From assembly GCA_000415505.1 (NCBI GenBank), contig KE354258.1, positions 1 through 32,104 of the forward strand: DNA of 32,104 nt, written 5' to 3'. How positions within the stretch are numbered: the first letter of the stretch is position 1; each line of letters opens with the position of its first letter. The DNA is from Streptomyces afghaniensis 772 (GTDB lineage Bacteria > Actinomycetota > Actinomycetes > Streptomycetales > Streptomycetaceae). Positions 2,960 through 8,725 of the stretch are shown here, piece by piece. A program made the translations under genes and the position numbers. The notes under the pieces are model-generated. The model ran no database searches. It was not told the DNA's origin and was given only the letters and a program-made list of their open reading frames with translations.

Positions 2960-4120
2960 GTGCAGCCAGCAAGTGAAACCCCCGACACACCCTCCGGGCG
3001 CCTCCACCGGGCTCGTGCTCTCTACCGGAACGTCTCCAAGCGCAGGACCGCCTGGCTGTTGCTCAAGGACACCGTCAACTCCTGCATCGAGTACCGCATC
3101 CTGGGCCTGGCGGCGGAGGCCGCGTTCTTCACGCTGCTGTCGGTGCCGCCGCTGCTGCTGAGCATGATCGGACTGCTCGGCTACGTCGACGCCTGGACCG
3201 GTGCCGACACCATCGAGAGCCTCCAGGCCAACCTTCTGGAGGCCGCCCGCACGGTGCTGTCCGACCGGGGCGTGCGGCAGATCGCCGAGCCGATCCTGCA
3301 CGACGTGATGAAGGGCGGCCGGCCCGACGTCATCTCCATCGGCTTCCTGTTCGCCCTGTGGTCCGGCTCCCGCGCCGTGAACGTCTTCATAGACACCATC
3401 ACCGTCATGTACGGCCTCGACGGTGTCCGGGGCATCGTGAAGACCCGCCTGATGGCCTTCGCGCTGTTCATCGTCGCCCTGCTGATCGGCTCGATCGCGC
3501 TGCCGCTGATGGTGGCCGGGCCGGACGCGGTCGTACGGATCGTGCCGTGGTCGACCACGGTCGTACAGGTCCTCTACTGGCCGGTCGTCATCCTCCTGTC
3601 GATCGCCTTCCTGACCACGCTCTACCACGTGTCCGTCCCCGTCCGCTCCCCGTGGATCGAGGACGTGCCCGGCGCGCTCGTCGCCCTCGGCATGTGGGTC
3701 CTCGGCAGCTTCCTGCTGCGGATCTACCTGACCAGCACGGTCGAGGGCCCGACGATCTACGGCTCCCTGGCCGCGCCCGTCGCCGTGCTGCTGTGGATCG
3801 GTGTGTCCGCGTTCGCCGTGCTCGTCGGCGCCGCGGTCAACGCCGCCATCGACCGGGTCTGGCCGGCCGCCGCGACGGCCGCGGCCCGCGAGGCCAACGA
3901 ACGCCTGCGGCAGGCGCAGGTCGCCGAGTACGTCGCCCGCGCCGCCGCCGCGGGCGAGTCCGACCCCGACATGCCCTCCGAGTTCCCCGAACGCTGGTCC
4001 CGCTTCCTCCCTCCGGAGGACGTCACGGCCCGCCTGCGGACACACGTGAAGAGCACCCACACCCACACGAAGGGCCCCGGCCACGCGAACGGGGAGCCAC
4101 CACCGCCCGCCGACAAGTAA
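2960..4120 (+). CDS. YihY/virulence factor BrkB family membrane protein
   Basis: 386 residues from a GTG start. The family core is clear: EYRILGLAAEAAFFTLLSVPP leads into the first membrane helix (about 50-75). Further hydrophobic segments occur at about 112-135, 165-185, 195-218, 235-255 and 265-290, matching the six-helix YihY/BrkB layout. GPTIYGSLAAPVAVLLWIGVSAFAVLVGAAVNA near 255-290 is the family's last conserved block. The tail is charged and His/Lys-rich (STHTHTKGPGHANG). The family was once called ribonuclease BN in error; its members are inner-membrane proteins of unknown transport or envelope role. It has its own promoter region, divergent from the AidB-like gene. Confidence 0.88.
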   Translation: MQPASETPDTPSGRLHRARALYRNVSKRRTAWLLLKDTVNSCIEYRILGLAAEAAFFTLLSVPPLLLSMIGLLGYVDAWTGADTIESLQANLLEAARTVLSDRGVRQIAEPILHDVMKGGRPDVISIGFLFALWSGSRAVNVFIDTITVMYGLDGVRGIVKTRLMAFALFIVALLIGSIALPLMVAGPDAVVRIVPWSTTVVQVLYWPVVILLSIAFLTTLYHVSVPVRSPWIEDVPGALVALGMWVLGSFLLRIYLTSTVEGPTIYGSLAAPVAVLLWIGVSAFAVLVGAAVNAAIDRVWPAAATAAAREANERLRQAQVAEYVARAAAAGESDPDMPSEFPERWSRFLPPEDVTARLRTHVKSTHTHTKGPGHANGEPPPPADK

Positions 4121-4509: not shown

Positions 4510-5354
4510 TCACGTCTGCCACGTTCCCGCCGCCGTCTCCTCCCGTACGAAGTCCGCGAAGTCCCTGGGCGCGCGGCCCAGGACCTCCCGTACGCCGTCC
4601 GAGACGTGTGCGTTGCGGCCGTCGAGGAGGGTGTCGAAGATTCCGGTCAGGGCCGTGACCTCCTGCGGCGGGATGCCGAAGCCGAGCAGGATCTCGCCGT
4701 ACTCGTGTGTCGACACCGCCCGGTAGGTGAGTGGGCGGCCCGTCGACTGGGCGATTTCCGCGACCGCCTCGCCGAAGGTGAGCAGGCGCGGCCCGGAGAG
4801 GGTGACCGTCCGGGCCACGTACCGGTCGCCGGACGTCAGCGCGGTCACCGTCACGTCCGCGATGTCCCGCACGTCGAGGAACGGCTCCCGCACCTCGTCG
4901 GCCGGGAACACCAGCTCCCCCCGCTCCCGCAGCTCCGCCACCAGCGGCCCTTCGCTGAAGTTCTGCGCGAACCACGCGGCCCGCAGGACCGTCCAGTCCG
5001 CCCCCGAGCGTGCAGCGCCTCCTCGGTGGGCAGGGCCTGGTCCTCGCCGCGCCCGGACAGCAGCACCAGCCGCCGCACCCCGAGCCCGACCGCTTCCCGC
5101 GCGAGGTCCCCGACCGCCTCGGCGGCGCCCGGCGCGCCGACGTCCGAGGGGTATACGAGGTAGGCCGCATCGGCGCCGCGCAGGGCGTCCGCCCACGTCG
5201 AGCGGTCCCACCAGTCGAAACCGGTCGCCCGCGACGCCGCCCGTACCGTGAGCCCGGCCGCCTTCGCCGCCCGTGCCACCCGGCTGCCCGTACGGCCCGA
5301 GGCGCCCGTCACCACAACCGTCATGTCCTTCGAGTTCCGTGTCGTGTTCGTCAT
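4510..5354 (-). pseudogene. NmrA-like NAD(P)-binding SDR, frameshifted as written
   Basis: The N-terminal half reads from the ATG at 5354 (or 5324) and has the dinucleotide motif TVVVTGASGRTGSRVARAAK at about 11-30 and a Rossmann fold through GVRRLVLLSGRGEDQALPTEEALHA. The C-terminal half continues in another frame from GADWTVLRAAWFAQNFSEGPL to the TGA at 4510. The frames join near 5003-5011 if one base is restored (GCxTCGGGG). Restored length is about 281 residues, normal for the NmrA/quinone-oxidoreductase-type atypical SDRs, which bind NAD(P)H and lack the classical YxxxK site. It diverges from an AraC-type gene across 81 bp, a usual regulator-SDR pairing. The defect may be a sequencing error, since neighbouring genes carry the same kind of lesion. 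Confidence 0.8.
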
Positions 5355-5423
5355 GCCGTCGAGTCAACTGCCGTACACCGCACGGAACCATCGCTGAACG
5401 GCTCATTCCCATACGGCCGCGTC

Positions 5424-5429
5424 TACGCT
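5424..5429 (+). promoter_or_regulatory. -10-like TACGCT, leaderless spacing
   Basis: TACGCT ends 6 nt before the ATG at 5436, with only GACCCC between and no Shine-Dalgarno sequence. The AraC mRNA therefore probably begins at its start codon. Confidence 0.4.
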
Positions 5430-5435
5430 GACCCC

Positions 5436-6368
5436 ATGGACGCACTCTCAGGGTTGCTGGAGGGCCCGCGCGCCAGGGGCGCGTTCATGATCAGGGCGTG
5501 CTTCGACCCGCCGTGGGCGGTACGCGTGGAGGACCGGGCGCCGCTCACCGTGATGCTCGTCGTGCGCGGCGAGGCCTGGGTCCTGCCCGACCGGGGCGAG
5601 CGGACCCTGCTGCGGGCCGGGGACCTCGCCGTCGCCCGCGGCCCGGACCCCTACACCTGCGGGGACGCCCCCGGCACGGCACCGCAGGCGCTGATCCTGC
5701 CCGGCCAGGAGTGCCGCTACCCGGACGGACGCCCCCTCCACGGCTCCATGGACCTGGGCGTACGCACCTGGGGCGACCGGCTCGACGGGTCCACGGTGAT
5801 GCTGATCGGCACGTACCCGATGCAGGGCGGATCAACGGCCGGCTGCTGGACGCGCTGCCGCCGCTGCTCGCCCTCACGTCCGACGTGTGGGACTGCCCGC
5901 TCACGCCGTACGTCGCCGAGGAGATCGTGCGGGACGAGCCCGGCCAGGAGGTGGTCCTGGACCGGCTGCTGGACCTGCTGGTCATCGCCGCGCTGCGCGC
6001 GTGGTTCGCCGCCCCGAGGCGGAGGCCCCCGCCTGGTACCGGGCCCTCGCCGACCCGGTCGTCGGCGGCGTCCTGCGCCTGCTCCAGGACAACCCCGCCC
6101 ACCCGTGGACCGTGGCCGCGCTCGCCGCCAAGGCCGGGGTGTCCCGCGCCGCACTCGCCCGCCGCTTCACCGCCCTGGTCGGCGAGCCCCCGATGGCGTA
6201 CCTCACCGGCTGGCGCCTCGCCCTCGCCGCCGACCGTCTGCGCGACTCCGAGGACACGCTCGACGCGGTGGCCCGGCGGGTGGGGTACGGCAGCGCGTTC
6301 GCCTTGTCGACGGCGTTCAAGCGGGTGTACGGGGTGAGCCCGGTGGAGTACCGGGGGCGGGGGCGTAG
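5436..6368 (+). pseudogene. AraC-family regulator (cupin sensor + AraC HTH), frameshifted as written
   Basis: The N-terminal cupin-type sensor (about residues 1-130) reads from the ATG at 5436: MDALSGLLEGPRARGAF, the VVRGEAWVLPD strand, LLRAGDLAVARG. The frame then shifts near 5823-5830 to continue as RINGRLLDALPPLLAL, and again near 6012-6015 in a C-run to continue as EAEAPAWYRALADP. The DNA-binding domain contains two HTHs (TVAALAAKAGVSRAALARRF and TLDAVARRVGYGSAFALSTAF) ending in GVSPVEYR. Each shift is cured by restoring one base. The last frame has no stop until 6660 and runs into the next gene; one more missing G near 6350-6360 would put the stop at 6368, which I take as the likely end. 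It probably controls the divergent SDR. Real decay and base-calling error are both possible. Confidence 0.75.
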
Positions 6369-6464
6369 CGGCCGGGAGCCACGGTGCCCTGGCCGGACGC
6401 CCTGGTCAGCGGCGGTGGGGCACCCCGGCCCGGGACGCTCGCGGCAGCCTCGCGGCCGGCGGCG

Positions 6465-6477: not shown

Positions 6478-7167
6478 GTGTACGTGGAGCGGGCGTCACG
6501 ACTGGCGGGAGCGGTCGTGTGGAGCAATGCCCCGGAGCGGGACGGGGCAGCGCGTGTGCTGCCCGACGGGTGCATGGACCTGCTGTGGCACGAGGGGCGG
6601 CTGCTGGTCGCCGGGCCCGACACGCACGCGTACGTCACGGACGGCGAGACCGGCGCCTGAGCCGGCGTCCGCTTCTACCCGGGCACGGCCCCGGCCCTGC
6701 TCGGCGTACCGGCGCACGAGCTGCGCGACCGCCGCGTCGAGCTCACGGATCTGTGGCCGGCCCCGGAGGTACGGCGACTGGCGGCACGGGTGAACGCCGC
6801 CCCCGACCCGGCGAGCGGACTGGAGGACCTCGCCCTGCGGCAGGCGGCCGGTGCCGATCCGCCGGATCCGCTGCTGCGGCAGGTCGTGGCCGCCCTCGGC
6901 GCGGGCCGGCCCGTCGCCGCGACCGCCGACGAACTCGGCCTCGGGGCACGCCAGTTGCACCGCCGTTCGCTGACCGCGTTCGGCTACGGACCCAAGACCC
7001 TGGCCCGGATCCTGCGGTTGCGCCGCGCCCTCGCGCTGGCCCGGCGCGGTGTGCCCTTCGCGGACACGGCCGCCCGGGCCGGCTACGCCGACCAGGCCCA
7101 TCTCGCCCGGGACGTCAGAGAGTTGACCGGCCTGCCGCTGGGGGAGCTACTCGCCCGACCCGGTTAG
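6478..7167 (+). pseudogene. Second AraC-family regulator, interrupted by an in-frame TGA
   Basis: From GTG 6478 the frame gives a typical N-terminal sensor (RVLPDGCMDLLWHEGRLLVAGPD) and meets TGA at 6658-6660. The same frame then continues without interruption as [23 protein letters not shown] and an AraC HTH (residues about 135-229: [28 protein letters not shown], then [23 protein letters not shown]) to TAG at 7167. The segment around the stop corresponds to a region where relatives, as I recall them, have a tryptophan (GAWAGVRF), so TGG to TGA is the simplest explanation. Full length would be 229 residues. The downstream part could start independently at GTG 6790 and yield a bare DNA-binding domain. 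The 3' end overlaps the convergent VOC gene by 21 bp. Confidence 0.75.
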
Positions 7168-7551
7168 CGGAGCGAACAGGTCCACCCCGTTGCCGTCCGG
7201 GTCGAGCACGACGGCGTACCGCTGACCCCAGAAGGCGTCCCAGGGCTTCAGCTCACCCCGGCACCCGGCGCTCACCAACTCCGCGTACAGCGCGTCCACT
7301 TCCTCCGGCCCGTCACACCGAAGGGCCAGCGAGGTCCGGCCGCCGTCGGTCGGCGGCCGCCACTCGGGCAGGAAGGAGCGGACCGTCTCCTCGGTGTCGA
7401 GCATCAGCCGCAGTCCGCCGGGCAGCCCGGCCTCGGAGTGCGGCTGGTTCTCGGCGCCCTCCGGGAAGGCGAACCCGAGCCGGCGGTAGAAGGCGACGGA
7501 GGCGGCCATGTCGGAGACGACCAGGCCGATGGCATCGAATCGTGCAGTCAT
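7147..7551 (-). CDS. VOC-family (glyoxalase/bleomycin-resistance fold) protein
   Basis: 134 residues, a typical single VOC unit pair: [22 protein letters not shown] begins the first beta-alpha-beta-beta-beta module and [18 protein letters not shown] ends the second. The usual N-terminal metal-ligand histidine of glyoxalase I is absent (IGLVV), and the C-terminal glutamate is an aspartate (GVDLF), so metal-dependent glyoxalase activity is unlikely. Binding, sequestration or an unassigned small-molecule reaction is more plausible. The start is ATG 7551. On this strand a TACGGT -10 box lies 6 nt before it with no Shine-Dalgarno, pointing to a leaderless mRNA controlled from the palindrome shared with the SRPBCC gene. 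Confidence 0.85.
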
Positions 7552-7557
7552 GGGCCC

Positions 7558-7656
7558 ACCGTAGGCAGGCCCGCGACGCTGGGTCTTGAAGGAATCGGAC
7601 ACCGGTCGCGCGGTGTCCGATACGTTCAAGACGGCCCCCGGGCAGGCCCGTAACGT
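7558..7656. promoter_or_regulatory. Divergent VOC/SRPBCC promoter with 50-bp palindromic operator
   Basis: Arms 7583-7604 and 7611-7632 are inverted copies matching at 20 of 22 positions, around a 6-nt centre (GTCGCG). Their inner ends are ATCGGACACCG and CGGTGTCCGAT; their outer ends are GTCTTGAA and TTCAAGAC. TTCAAGAC on the plus strand sits 18 bp before TAACGT (7651-7656), which is 7 nt before the SRPBCC ATG. The mirror TTCAAGAC on the minus strand sits 19 bp before TACGGT (7563-7558), which is 6 nt before the VOC ATG. Each arm thus carries the -35 region of one promoter, so a dimeric protein bound here would silence both genes together. The binding protein is not evident. Confidence 0.7.
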
Positions 7657-7663
7657 CGCCGCC

Positions 7664-8071
7664 ATGACGACCACGACACGGCATTCCAGGCACCTCGGCA
7701 TCTCCATCGACCGACCCGCCCAGGAGGTCTACGACTACGTCTCGGACCCCGCCAACGTCCCCGGCTGGGCCCCCGGACTGGCCCGTTCCCTCGAGCTGGT
7801 GGACGGCCGGTGGGTGGGGGAGTCGCCCATGGGGCGGGTCGTGGTGGACTTCACGCCCAGGAACGACTTCGGCGTGCTCGACCACGACGTCACTCTGCCC
7901 TCGGGGGAGACCGTCCACAACCCGATGCGGGTGCTCACCGACGGCCCCGGCTGCGAGGTGGTCTTCACCCTGCGCCGCCGGCCCTGGATGAGCGACGAGG
8001 ACTTCCACCGCGACGCGGAGGCGGTGACCGCCGACCTCACCGCCCTCAAGCGGCTGATGGAACGCGCCTAG
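7664..8071 (+). CDS. SRPBCC-family (START/polyketide-cyclase fold) protein
   Basis: 135 residues starting at ATG 7664. The HLGISIDRPAQEVYDYVSDPANVPGWAPGL opening is the standard beginning of SRPBCC ligand-binding proteins. It is followed by antiparallel strands (VVVDFTPRNDFGVLDHDVTL, CEVVFTLRRRP) and a long C-terminal helix (FHRDAEAVTADLTALKRLMERA) that closes the pocket. The ligand and reaction are unknown. It diverges from the VOC gene over a shared palindrome, and pairs of such small-molecule proteins often act together in detoxification or modification. The stop codon abuts an IS481-type transposase remnant, so insertion occurred at or just after the gene end; length and final helix look complete. 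Confidence 0.85.
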   Translation: MTTTTRHSRHLGISIDRPAQEVYDYVSDPANVPGWAPGLARSLELVDGRWVGESPMGRVVVDFTPRNDFGVLDHDVTLPSGETVHNPMRVLTDGPGCEVVFTLRRRPWMSDEDFHRDAEAVTADLTALKRLMERA

Positions 8072-8380
8072 GTGGTGCTGATCGCACAGGTTGGTGACGC
8101 GGCTGGCTGGGGTGTGGCCGCCGATGCCGGTCGAGCAGGGTGCGGTGGAAGCGTTCGACCTTGTCGTTGGTCCGGGGCCGCCAGGGTCGGGTCCAGCGGG
8201 GGCTGATGCCCAGGTCGTGGCAGGTCTGGCGCCAGGTGTTCTTGGTGTAGGCCCAGGCGTTGTCGGTCAGGTGGTGGCGCGGGTGAGGAAGCCTGCGCAG
8301 GTCGGGGCGGTCTCGTCGGGCAGGTCTTCGGTGTAGGCCAGGCGGGGGGGCGTCCAGGGCGGTGTGCAGGCAGGAGCTTT
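8072..8380 (-). mobile_element. IS481-type transposase remnant (DDE domain fragment)
   Basis: The minus strand encodes scattered pieces of an integrase-core transposase in several frames: LHTALDA, then RLAYTEDLPDETAPTCAGFLTRATT, then LTDNAWAYTKNTWRQTCHDL, then RPRTNDKVERFHRTLLDR, and finally TPASRVTNLCDQHHL. The order and wording are those of the IS481 family. The catalytic aspartate in LTDN and the glutamate in KVERF are still present. About 30 nt normally between the TRATT and LTDN segments are missing, the frames do not agree, and the N-terminus is lost, so it cannot be active. No terminal inverted repeats were recognised. Confidence 0.72.
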
Positions 8381-8439
8381 CCGCTACCGCCGTGGCCCGA
8401 GGTCCGGGACCAGCCCCCGGGCCACTGGTAGCCGTGGAC

Positions 8440-8628
8440 GAGGCACACCTGACGGGCGTCAGTGGCGGCCCTGACGGCCTCCCGGTCGAAGGAGAGCCCG
8501 AGGCGCCTCGCGTGGTTCGTGATCGTGCCGACGGACCACTCCAACTGAGGGGCGATCTCATTGCGGCTGACGCCGTCAGCGTGGAGACGGAGCCGCTCCT
8601 CGCCCTCGGCGGAGAAGGTTCGGGCCAC
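8440..8628 (-). pseudogene. HTH-domain fragment of mobile-element type
   Basis: A GTG at 8628 opens about 60 residues, FSAEGEERLRLHADGVSRNEI followed by GTITNHARRLGLSFDRE. This is the N-terminal helix-turn-helix found in small actinobacterial phage and integrative-element proteins (terminase-small-subunit-like or element regulators). After AATDARQ the frame enters unrelated sequence and then the IS481 remnant, so it is a truncated gene fused to insertion-sequence debris. Function is presumed lost. Together with the transposase remnant it marks the left edge of the accessory segment. Confidence 0.5.
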
Positions 8629-8725
8629 GGCCGGCTCACCCCCTCACTCGCGTGTGGTGACGGGTGACCGGTCAGTCAGCGAGAACGGCTGACGGTGCCC
8701 CGGTTGCCCTGACAACATCAGCGCC

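Follow-up and report, generated by a model that had tools for sequence, protein, structure and literature searches.

A palindrome between divergent VOC and SRPBCC genes of Streptomyces afghaniensis 772 as two probable, outward-facing copies of an AraC-type operator

We analysed 32,104 nucleotides of the draft genome of Streptomyces afghaniensis 772 (assembly GCA_000415505.1, contig KE354258.1, positions 1 to 32,104), and we refer to this whole stretch as the window. Within it, a VOC gene and an SRPBCC (Polyketide_cyc2) gene diverge from a short region that contains a 50-bp inverted repeat, and a gene for an AraC-type regulator converges with the VOC gene (Table 1). A search of NCBIfam returned no family for the VOC or the SRPBCC protein, and its matches to the AraC protein are weak and far below the cut-off. 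On the 3' side of the SRPBCC gene, positions 8068-8640 hold a fragmentary frame that resembles a transposase remnant by eye and has no Pfam match; the similarity of the window to the related genome G009 stops at 8065.

Table 1. Coordinates of the features discussed, in window numbering
Feature	Position	Strand	Basis
AraC regulator gene (DUF6597-HTH_18), convergent with VOC, one in-frame TGA	6478..7167	+	PF20240, PF12833; open homologue in L032/L318
VOC gene	7147..7551	-	Pfam PF00903 1.3e-19; PDB 2a4w, 1kmz, 1kll E about 1e-43, residues 1-129
-10 element TACGGT, VOC gene	7558..7563	-	TAnnnT conserved in VOC promoters with the site
AraC-type site 1, VOC side, TGTCCGAT-TCC-TTCAAGAC	7583..7601	-	exact match; conserved before VOC
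50-bp inverted repeat made by sites 1 and 2	7583..7632		repeat search; simulations
AraC-type site 2, SRPBCC side, TGTCCGAT-ACG-TTCAAGAC	7614..7632	+	exact match; similar site before SRPBCC homologues elsewhere
-10 element TAACGT, SRPBCC gene	7651..7656	+	fits full layout pattern
SRPBCC (Polyketide_cyc2) gene	7664..8071	+	PF10604 4.4e-10; PDB 2qpv Atu1531 9.2e-37

The repeat agrees with a preliminary description of this DNA, which had reported a palindrome of two 22-bp arms between the two genes. The arms (7583-7604 and 7611-7632, 22 nt each) are paired at 20 of 22 positions (91%) around a 6-nt centre. A window-wide search for repeats with 22-nt arms, at least 20 of 22 pairs and a loop of at most 20 nt found only this one, and none of 60 simulated sequences with the window's dinucleotide frequencies contained a comparable inverted repeat. 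Because the repeat is unique in the window and absent from the simulations, we conclude that it did not arise by chance. Each arm, read toward its own gene, is a complete 19-nt site of the form TGTCCGAT-N3-TTCAAGAC. We also considered that the palindrome might be a hairpin, a terminator or a mobile element, and we ruled this out, since both arms are complete, promoter-placed sites that occur singly elsewhere.

The promoter layout described earlier, with its divergent promoters, -10 boxes, spacings, leaderless geometry and sites over both -35 regions, was likewise borne out by inspection of the sequence. The VOC gene starts at an ATG at 7551-7549 (minus strand), 6 nt from its TACGGT, and the SRPBCC gene starts at an ATG 7 nt from its TAACGT. 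In both genes, then, the -10 box lies 6-7 nt before the start codon, as is characteristic of leaderless promoters. The distance from TTCAAGAC to the -10 element is 19 nt on the VOC side and 18 nt on the SRPBCC side; the site overlaps the -35 region at a fixed distance from the -10 element, which is the arrangement of class II AraC promoters. VOC and SRPBCC are likely to be under shared control at this locus.

The 19-nt site is conserved in both sequence and position. In the 9.85-Mb draft genome, its only two exact matches are the two arms; four other places come closest, with two mismatches each, and by eye none of them has the promoter layout. Exact matches occur in 47 of 150 Streptomyces genomes (0 for a backward-pattern control). 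Across the class, 22 of 394 genomes (Streptomyces included) contain one, and these belong to 11 of 137 genera. We opened 29 exact-match loci from the Streptomyces set, 20 from the class set (7 from Streptomyces and 13 from other genera) and 3 paired loci. The site is followed by VOC in these loci, except that the second site of the paired loci precedes SRPBCC. The genes were recognised through similarity or by eye; at L077, VOC is recognisable from its first codons only. The start codon lies 30-32 nt from the site in nearly all of these loci, and L081 has a VOC-like ATG farther away.

When the analysis starts from the gene instead, VOC matches at 1e-30 are found in 131 of the 150 Streptomyces genomes. 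Among 124 scored upstream regions, 120 reach at least 12 of the 16 informative positions, and the maximum for a letter-shuffled control is 11. The distance from site to ATG in these 120 promoters is 30 nt (13 promoters), 31 nt (99) or 32 nt (8), and 118 of them have TAnnnT 5-8 nt ahead of the ATG, the exceptions being G077 and G043. With 7 VOC genomes that lack a score counted via a match to the full layout pattern, a site precedes the VOC start in 127 of the 131 VOC-bearing genomes. The four siteless genomes are G082, G127, G133 and G060. The full layout pattern itself has 100 matches in 93 of the 150 genomes (control 0), which by their coordinates belong to VOC in 90 cases, to SRPBCC in 9 and to another gene in 1. 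One match to the full pattern, on contig 741 of G017 (3782-3832; L314), stands before a gene that does not look like VOC or SRPBCC by eye, and this gene is a possible third target. Literature searches on the motif TTCAAGAC with Streptomyces or GTCCGATTC, and on AraC operators beside glyoxalase genes in Streptomyces or Actinobacteria, gave no relevant title among the matches listed.

This conserved block might be an extended -35 element of an alternative sigma factor and not an activator site, and the fixed distance to the -10 element and the ATG is what such an element would show. However, the distribution of the AraC gene follows that of the site. AraC matches at 1e-15 are present in 135 of the 150 genomes (a few of these are fragments or distant paralogues) and in all 127 of the genomes that have the site, and they are absent from three of the four siteless VOC genomes, namely G082, G127 and G133. 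The chance that all three AraC-less genomes would be found within the siteless four is about 1e-5, calculated by hand under the assumption that genomes are independent, which they are not. The fourth siteless genome, G060, has both AraC and VOC matches yet reaches only 8/16; its VOC protein is 55% identical and is encoded on a different contig from AraC. In addition, a two-block element of 19 nt would be long for a -35, and TAnnnT is an ordinary -10 element. We therefore regard the sigma-factor explanation as highly improbable.

The AraC gene is also physically close to the site. Of the 3-kb loci opened, 26 of the 29 from the Streptomyces set and 19 of the 20 from the class set contain a homologue, which lies at most 1.5 kb from the site. 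The three Streptomyces genomes in which it is missing from the 3-kb locus have an AraC homologue 1-2 kb from VOC, and at L084, which has the site and VOC, AraC was not found within 3 kb. The preliminary description had stated that no intact regulator lies next to the palindrome and that the AraC gene carries a stop codon. The stop codon is indeed there, as one internal TGA in frame. It does not follow that the locus lacks a regulator; the interrupted gene is itself the candidate, as its frame is open in the relative G009 and it co-occurs with the site. In a search that read through the stop, its product contains a separate N-terminal DUF6597 domain (PF20240, 7.4e-14, over the cut-off), and the C-terminal double helix-turn-helix HTH_18 is found at 6790-7167 of the window (PF12833, 7.1e-15). 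The downstream part of the gene is an open frame of 125 aa that covers nearly the whole HTH_18 profile.

The stop codon raises the possibility that the pair of sites is a relic in this strain, in which AraC no longer works and VOC and SRPBCC are either without regulation or permanently on or off; this would be compatible with regulation by AraC in the relatives. The genome encodes two further DUF6597 proteins, which could be readers of the site. These are more distant, and a second close homologue of this AraC is not listed for the genome, which favours a relic. Against it, both sites are exact, and a read error is plausible, given that the genome is a draft of 1724 contigs and that two upstream genes carry single-base deletions. 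These genes, at 4510-6370 of the window, are a divergent SDR-like gene (weak Pfam matches) and an AraC-type gene (by eye), and both are out of frame relative to G009 and G124. Because neighbouring genes also carry such deletions, decay and draft error are not distinguishable from the sequence, and the region around the AraC gene is either decaying or poorly read. On balance, we find a relic rather doubtful.

SRPBCC matches at 1e-20 occur in 19 of the 150 genomes, and we scored 17 loci outside the window and G009 (L076, whose contig ends at the gene, was left out). A site with at least 13/16 is found in 14 of the 17, always 31-32 nt before an in-frame start, and is missing in G023, G051 and G059; the last of these has AraC and reaches 10/16. 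One explanation is that a different AraC-family regulator, whose motif is similar, acts on SRPBCC, that the neighbouring AraC serves only VOC, and that their pairing is a chance juxtaposition. In a search with a profile of this AraC, which could miss remote AraC types, a homologue was absent from 18 SRPBCC loci of 1.9-3.4 kb and from 8 larger regions that were fetched. Moreover, SRPBCC sites are present in two of the four scored genomes without an AraC match (G010, 14/16; G133, 13/16), and the two sites of G052 differ, with TTCAAGAC before SRPBCC and TACAAGAC before VOC. In view of these two last observations, another regulator may read SRPBCC sites. However, the site is found in 12 of 13 scored loci whose genome has an AraC match versus 2 of 4 without one, although these numbers are small. 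We consider a separate SRPBCC regulator with chance pairing to be somewhat unlikely.

The DUF6597 paralogues in the same genome offer a point of comparison. The neighbour divergent from one of them (L054, 1885-1937) has TTCAAGAG, TACGGT and an ATG at 31 nt, so that the layout is as at VOC with a different outer block; its score is only 11/16, and this is one case, found after the fact. At the third DUF6597 gene (L056) the best score is 10/16, and the layout was not seen within the 60 bases examined. The L054 arrangement fits a regulator family that would keep the block on the -35 side, and paralogues of the DUF6597-AraC type may have the layout and the TTCAAGA block in common but differ in the outer block. 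We also considered covariation between regulator and operator. In 78 genomes, the second T of TTCAAGAC was compared to AraC residue 203 (G009 numbering, L032): T occurs with Y or F in 54 of 55 cases, and A with C in 20 of 23. This covariation is strong by count, but it lies mostly within one clade, with one independent pair on supported branches, so it is not phylogenetically independent and we treat it as a hint only.

Given a conserved single site, we can ask what the pairing of two sites means. The preliminary description had proposed that the palindrome is a functional unit, in which one bound regulator dimer covers the whole 50 bp and both -35 regions and switches the two genes together. 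The near-perfect symmetry and the position over both -35 regions agree with this proposal, as does the fact that both sites are exact in five of six paired loci. Nonetheless, the single site is the rule among genomes, as the VOC counts above demonstrate, and VOC and SRPBCC each keep their own site when standing alone. Scored on the opposite strand, the 124 VOC promoters give 16 for the window and G009, 14/16 for G124, 12 for G085 and at most 11 for the rest; only two of the promoters are thus faced by a perfect partner site. In a scan of 84,980 species, each represented by a single genome, the paired pattern appeared in three records (this set may leave out close relatives of the window), from Streptomyces coeruleorubidus, S. 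olindensis and S. africanus.

The spacing of the paired sites varies as well. The gap is 12 nt in the window, 24 nt in G009, 25, 11 and 13 nt in the three named species, and 13 nt in G124, where the second site is decayed (L029 1533-1551, 14/16). G124 resembles the window only as far as 7651, a position within the SRPBCC promoter, and SRPBCC was not found in G124 in the 1e-20 search. Within the SRPBCC-side site, a block of approximately 12 nt is tandemly duplicated in G009 (L032 ~1530-1556, imperfect) and in S. coeruleorubidus (L077 ~78-101), and this duplication lengthens the gap. We thus did not find the fixed half-site spacing, with both halves conserved together, that distinguishes the operator of a single dimer. 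Gaps of 11-13 or 24-25 nt vary too much to suit one rigid dimer, and we judge the single-dimer explanation to be improbable. The expectation that the palindrome is conserved before VOC/SRPBCC pairs fared better, in that the five face-to-face loci have both sites; this evidence is partly circular, since three of these loci were found via the paired pattern.

Our preferred reading, to which we assign a probability of roughly 0.7, is that the palindrome consists of two copies of an asymmetric 19-nt operator, that these point away from each other and are independent, and that the neighbouring DUF6597-type AraC regulator reads them. The two blocks, TGTCCGAT and TTCAAGAC, are about one helical turn apart, a spacing that would suit the two helix-turn-helix units of a single AraC DNA-binding domain. 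The block nearer the gene lies at the -35 position, 18-19 nt before the TAnnnT -10 element, and class II activation is therefore the likely mode. In this mechanism, the neighbouring AraC is the predicted reader and would bind the site, activating (rather than repressing) a leaderless transcript that presumably starts at the ATG; the inducer is perhaps a flat aromatic compound of the kind bound by MRD. There would usually be one site per gene, and in a small Streptomyces group, where SRPBCC came to stand beside VOC, the sites would meet and the mirror image would arise. On this reading, the mirror-image pairing is rare and local, and it does not make the two sites a single switch.

A more general hypothesis, for which we see about even odds, is that DUF6597-AraC and the convergent MRD-like VOC form a module in several genera with one strictly placed leaderless operator, and that the same operator stands before SRPBCC, which is controlled in trans when alone and shares the face-to-face operator in one Streptomyces group. 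What appears to be new is the putative operator assignment for a DUF6597-AraC regulator, together with the same predicted site before an unlinked SRPBCC gene; a literature search under the name DUF6597 found no paper. This type of regulator thus gains a specific predicted operator and target that can be put to the test, and a reporter carrying the 19-nt site would be a cheap way to identify the inducer of the MRD-like module. The locus also illustrates that a striking palindrome can be the meeting of two ordinary sites.

Class II activator sites of the AraC/XylS family, such as the mar box of MarA and araI, are asymmetric, span approximately 20 bp and have two blocks one turn apart that overlap the -35 region. 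Such a site, with its two blocks spanning one turn across the -35, is what a single AraC DNA-binding domain would occupy in class II activation. The palindrome is real, its sites are conserved, and it is explained by these known principles as two ordinary AraC-type sites placed back to back. The 19-nt site resembles the mar box and araI in its asymmetry, its two blocks one turn apart and its overlap with the -35. The present system differs from them in that its regulator has a DUF6597 N-terminal half, its promoter is of the leaderless type and its target is the convergent neighbour. The VOC protein has near full-length similarity to MRD, the mitomycin-binding protein of Streptomyces lavendulae (PDB 1kmz, 1kll, 2a4w), to which it is homologous over residues 1-129 (E about 1e-43). 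According to PMC3175449, MRD and its relative EhpR bind flat aromatic compounds, which are stacked against aromatic side chains. For Streptomyces coelicolor, PMC4895711 gives the share of leaderless mRNAs as about 21%, and in their sequence layout, with a -10 box 6-7 nt before the ATG and no Shine-Dalgarno seen, the VOC and SRPBCC promoters resemble the leaderless promoters described there.
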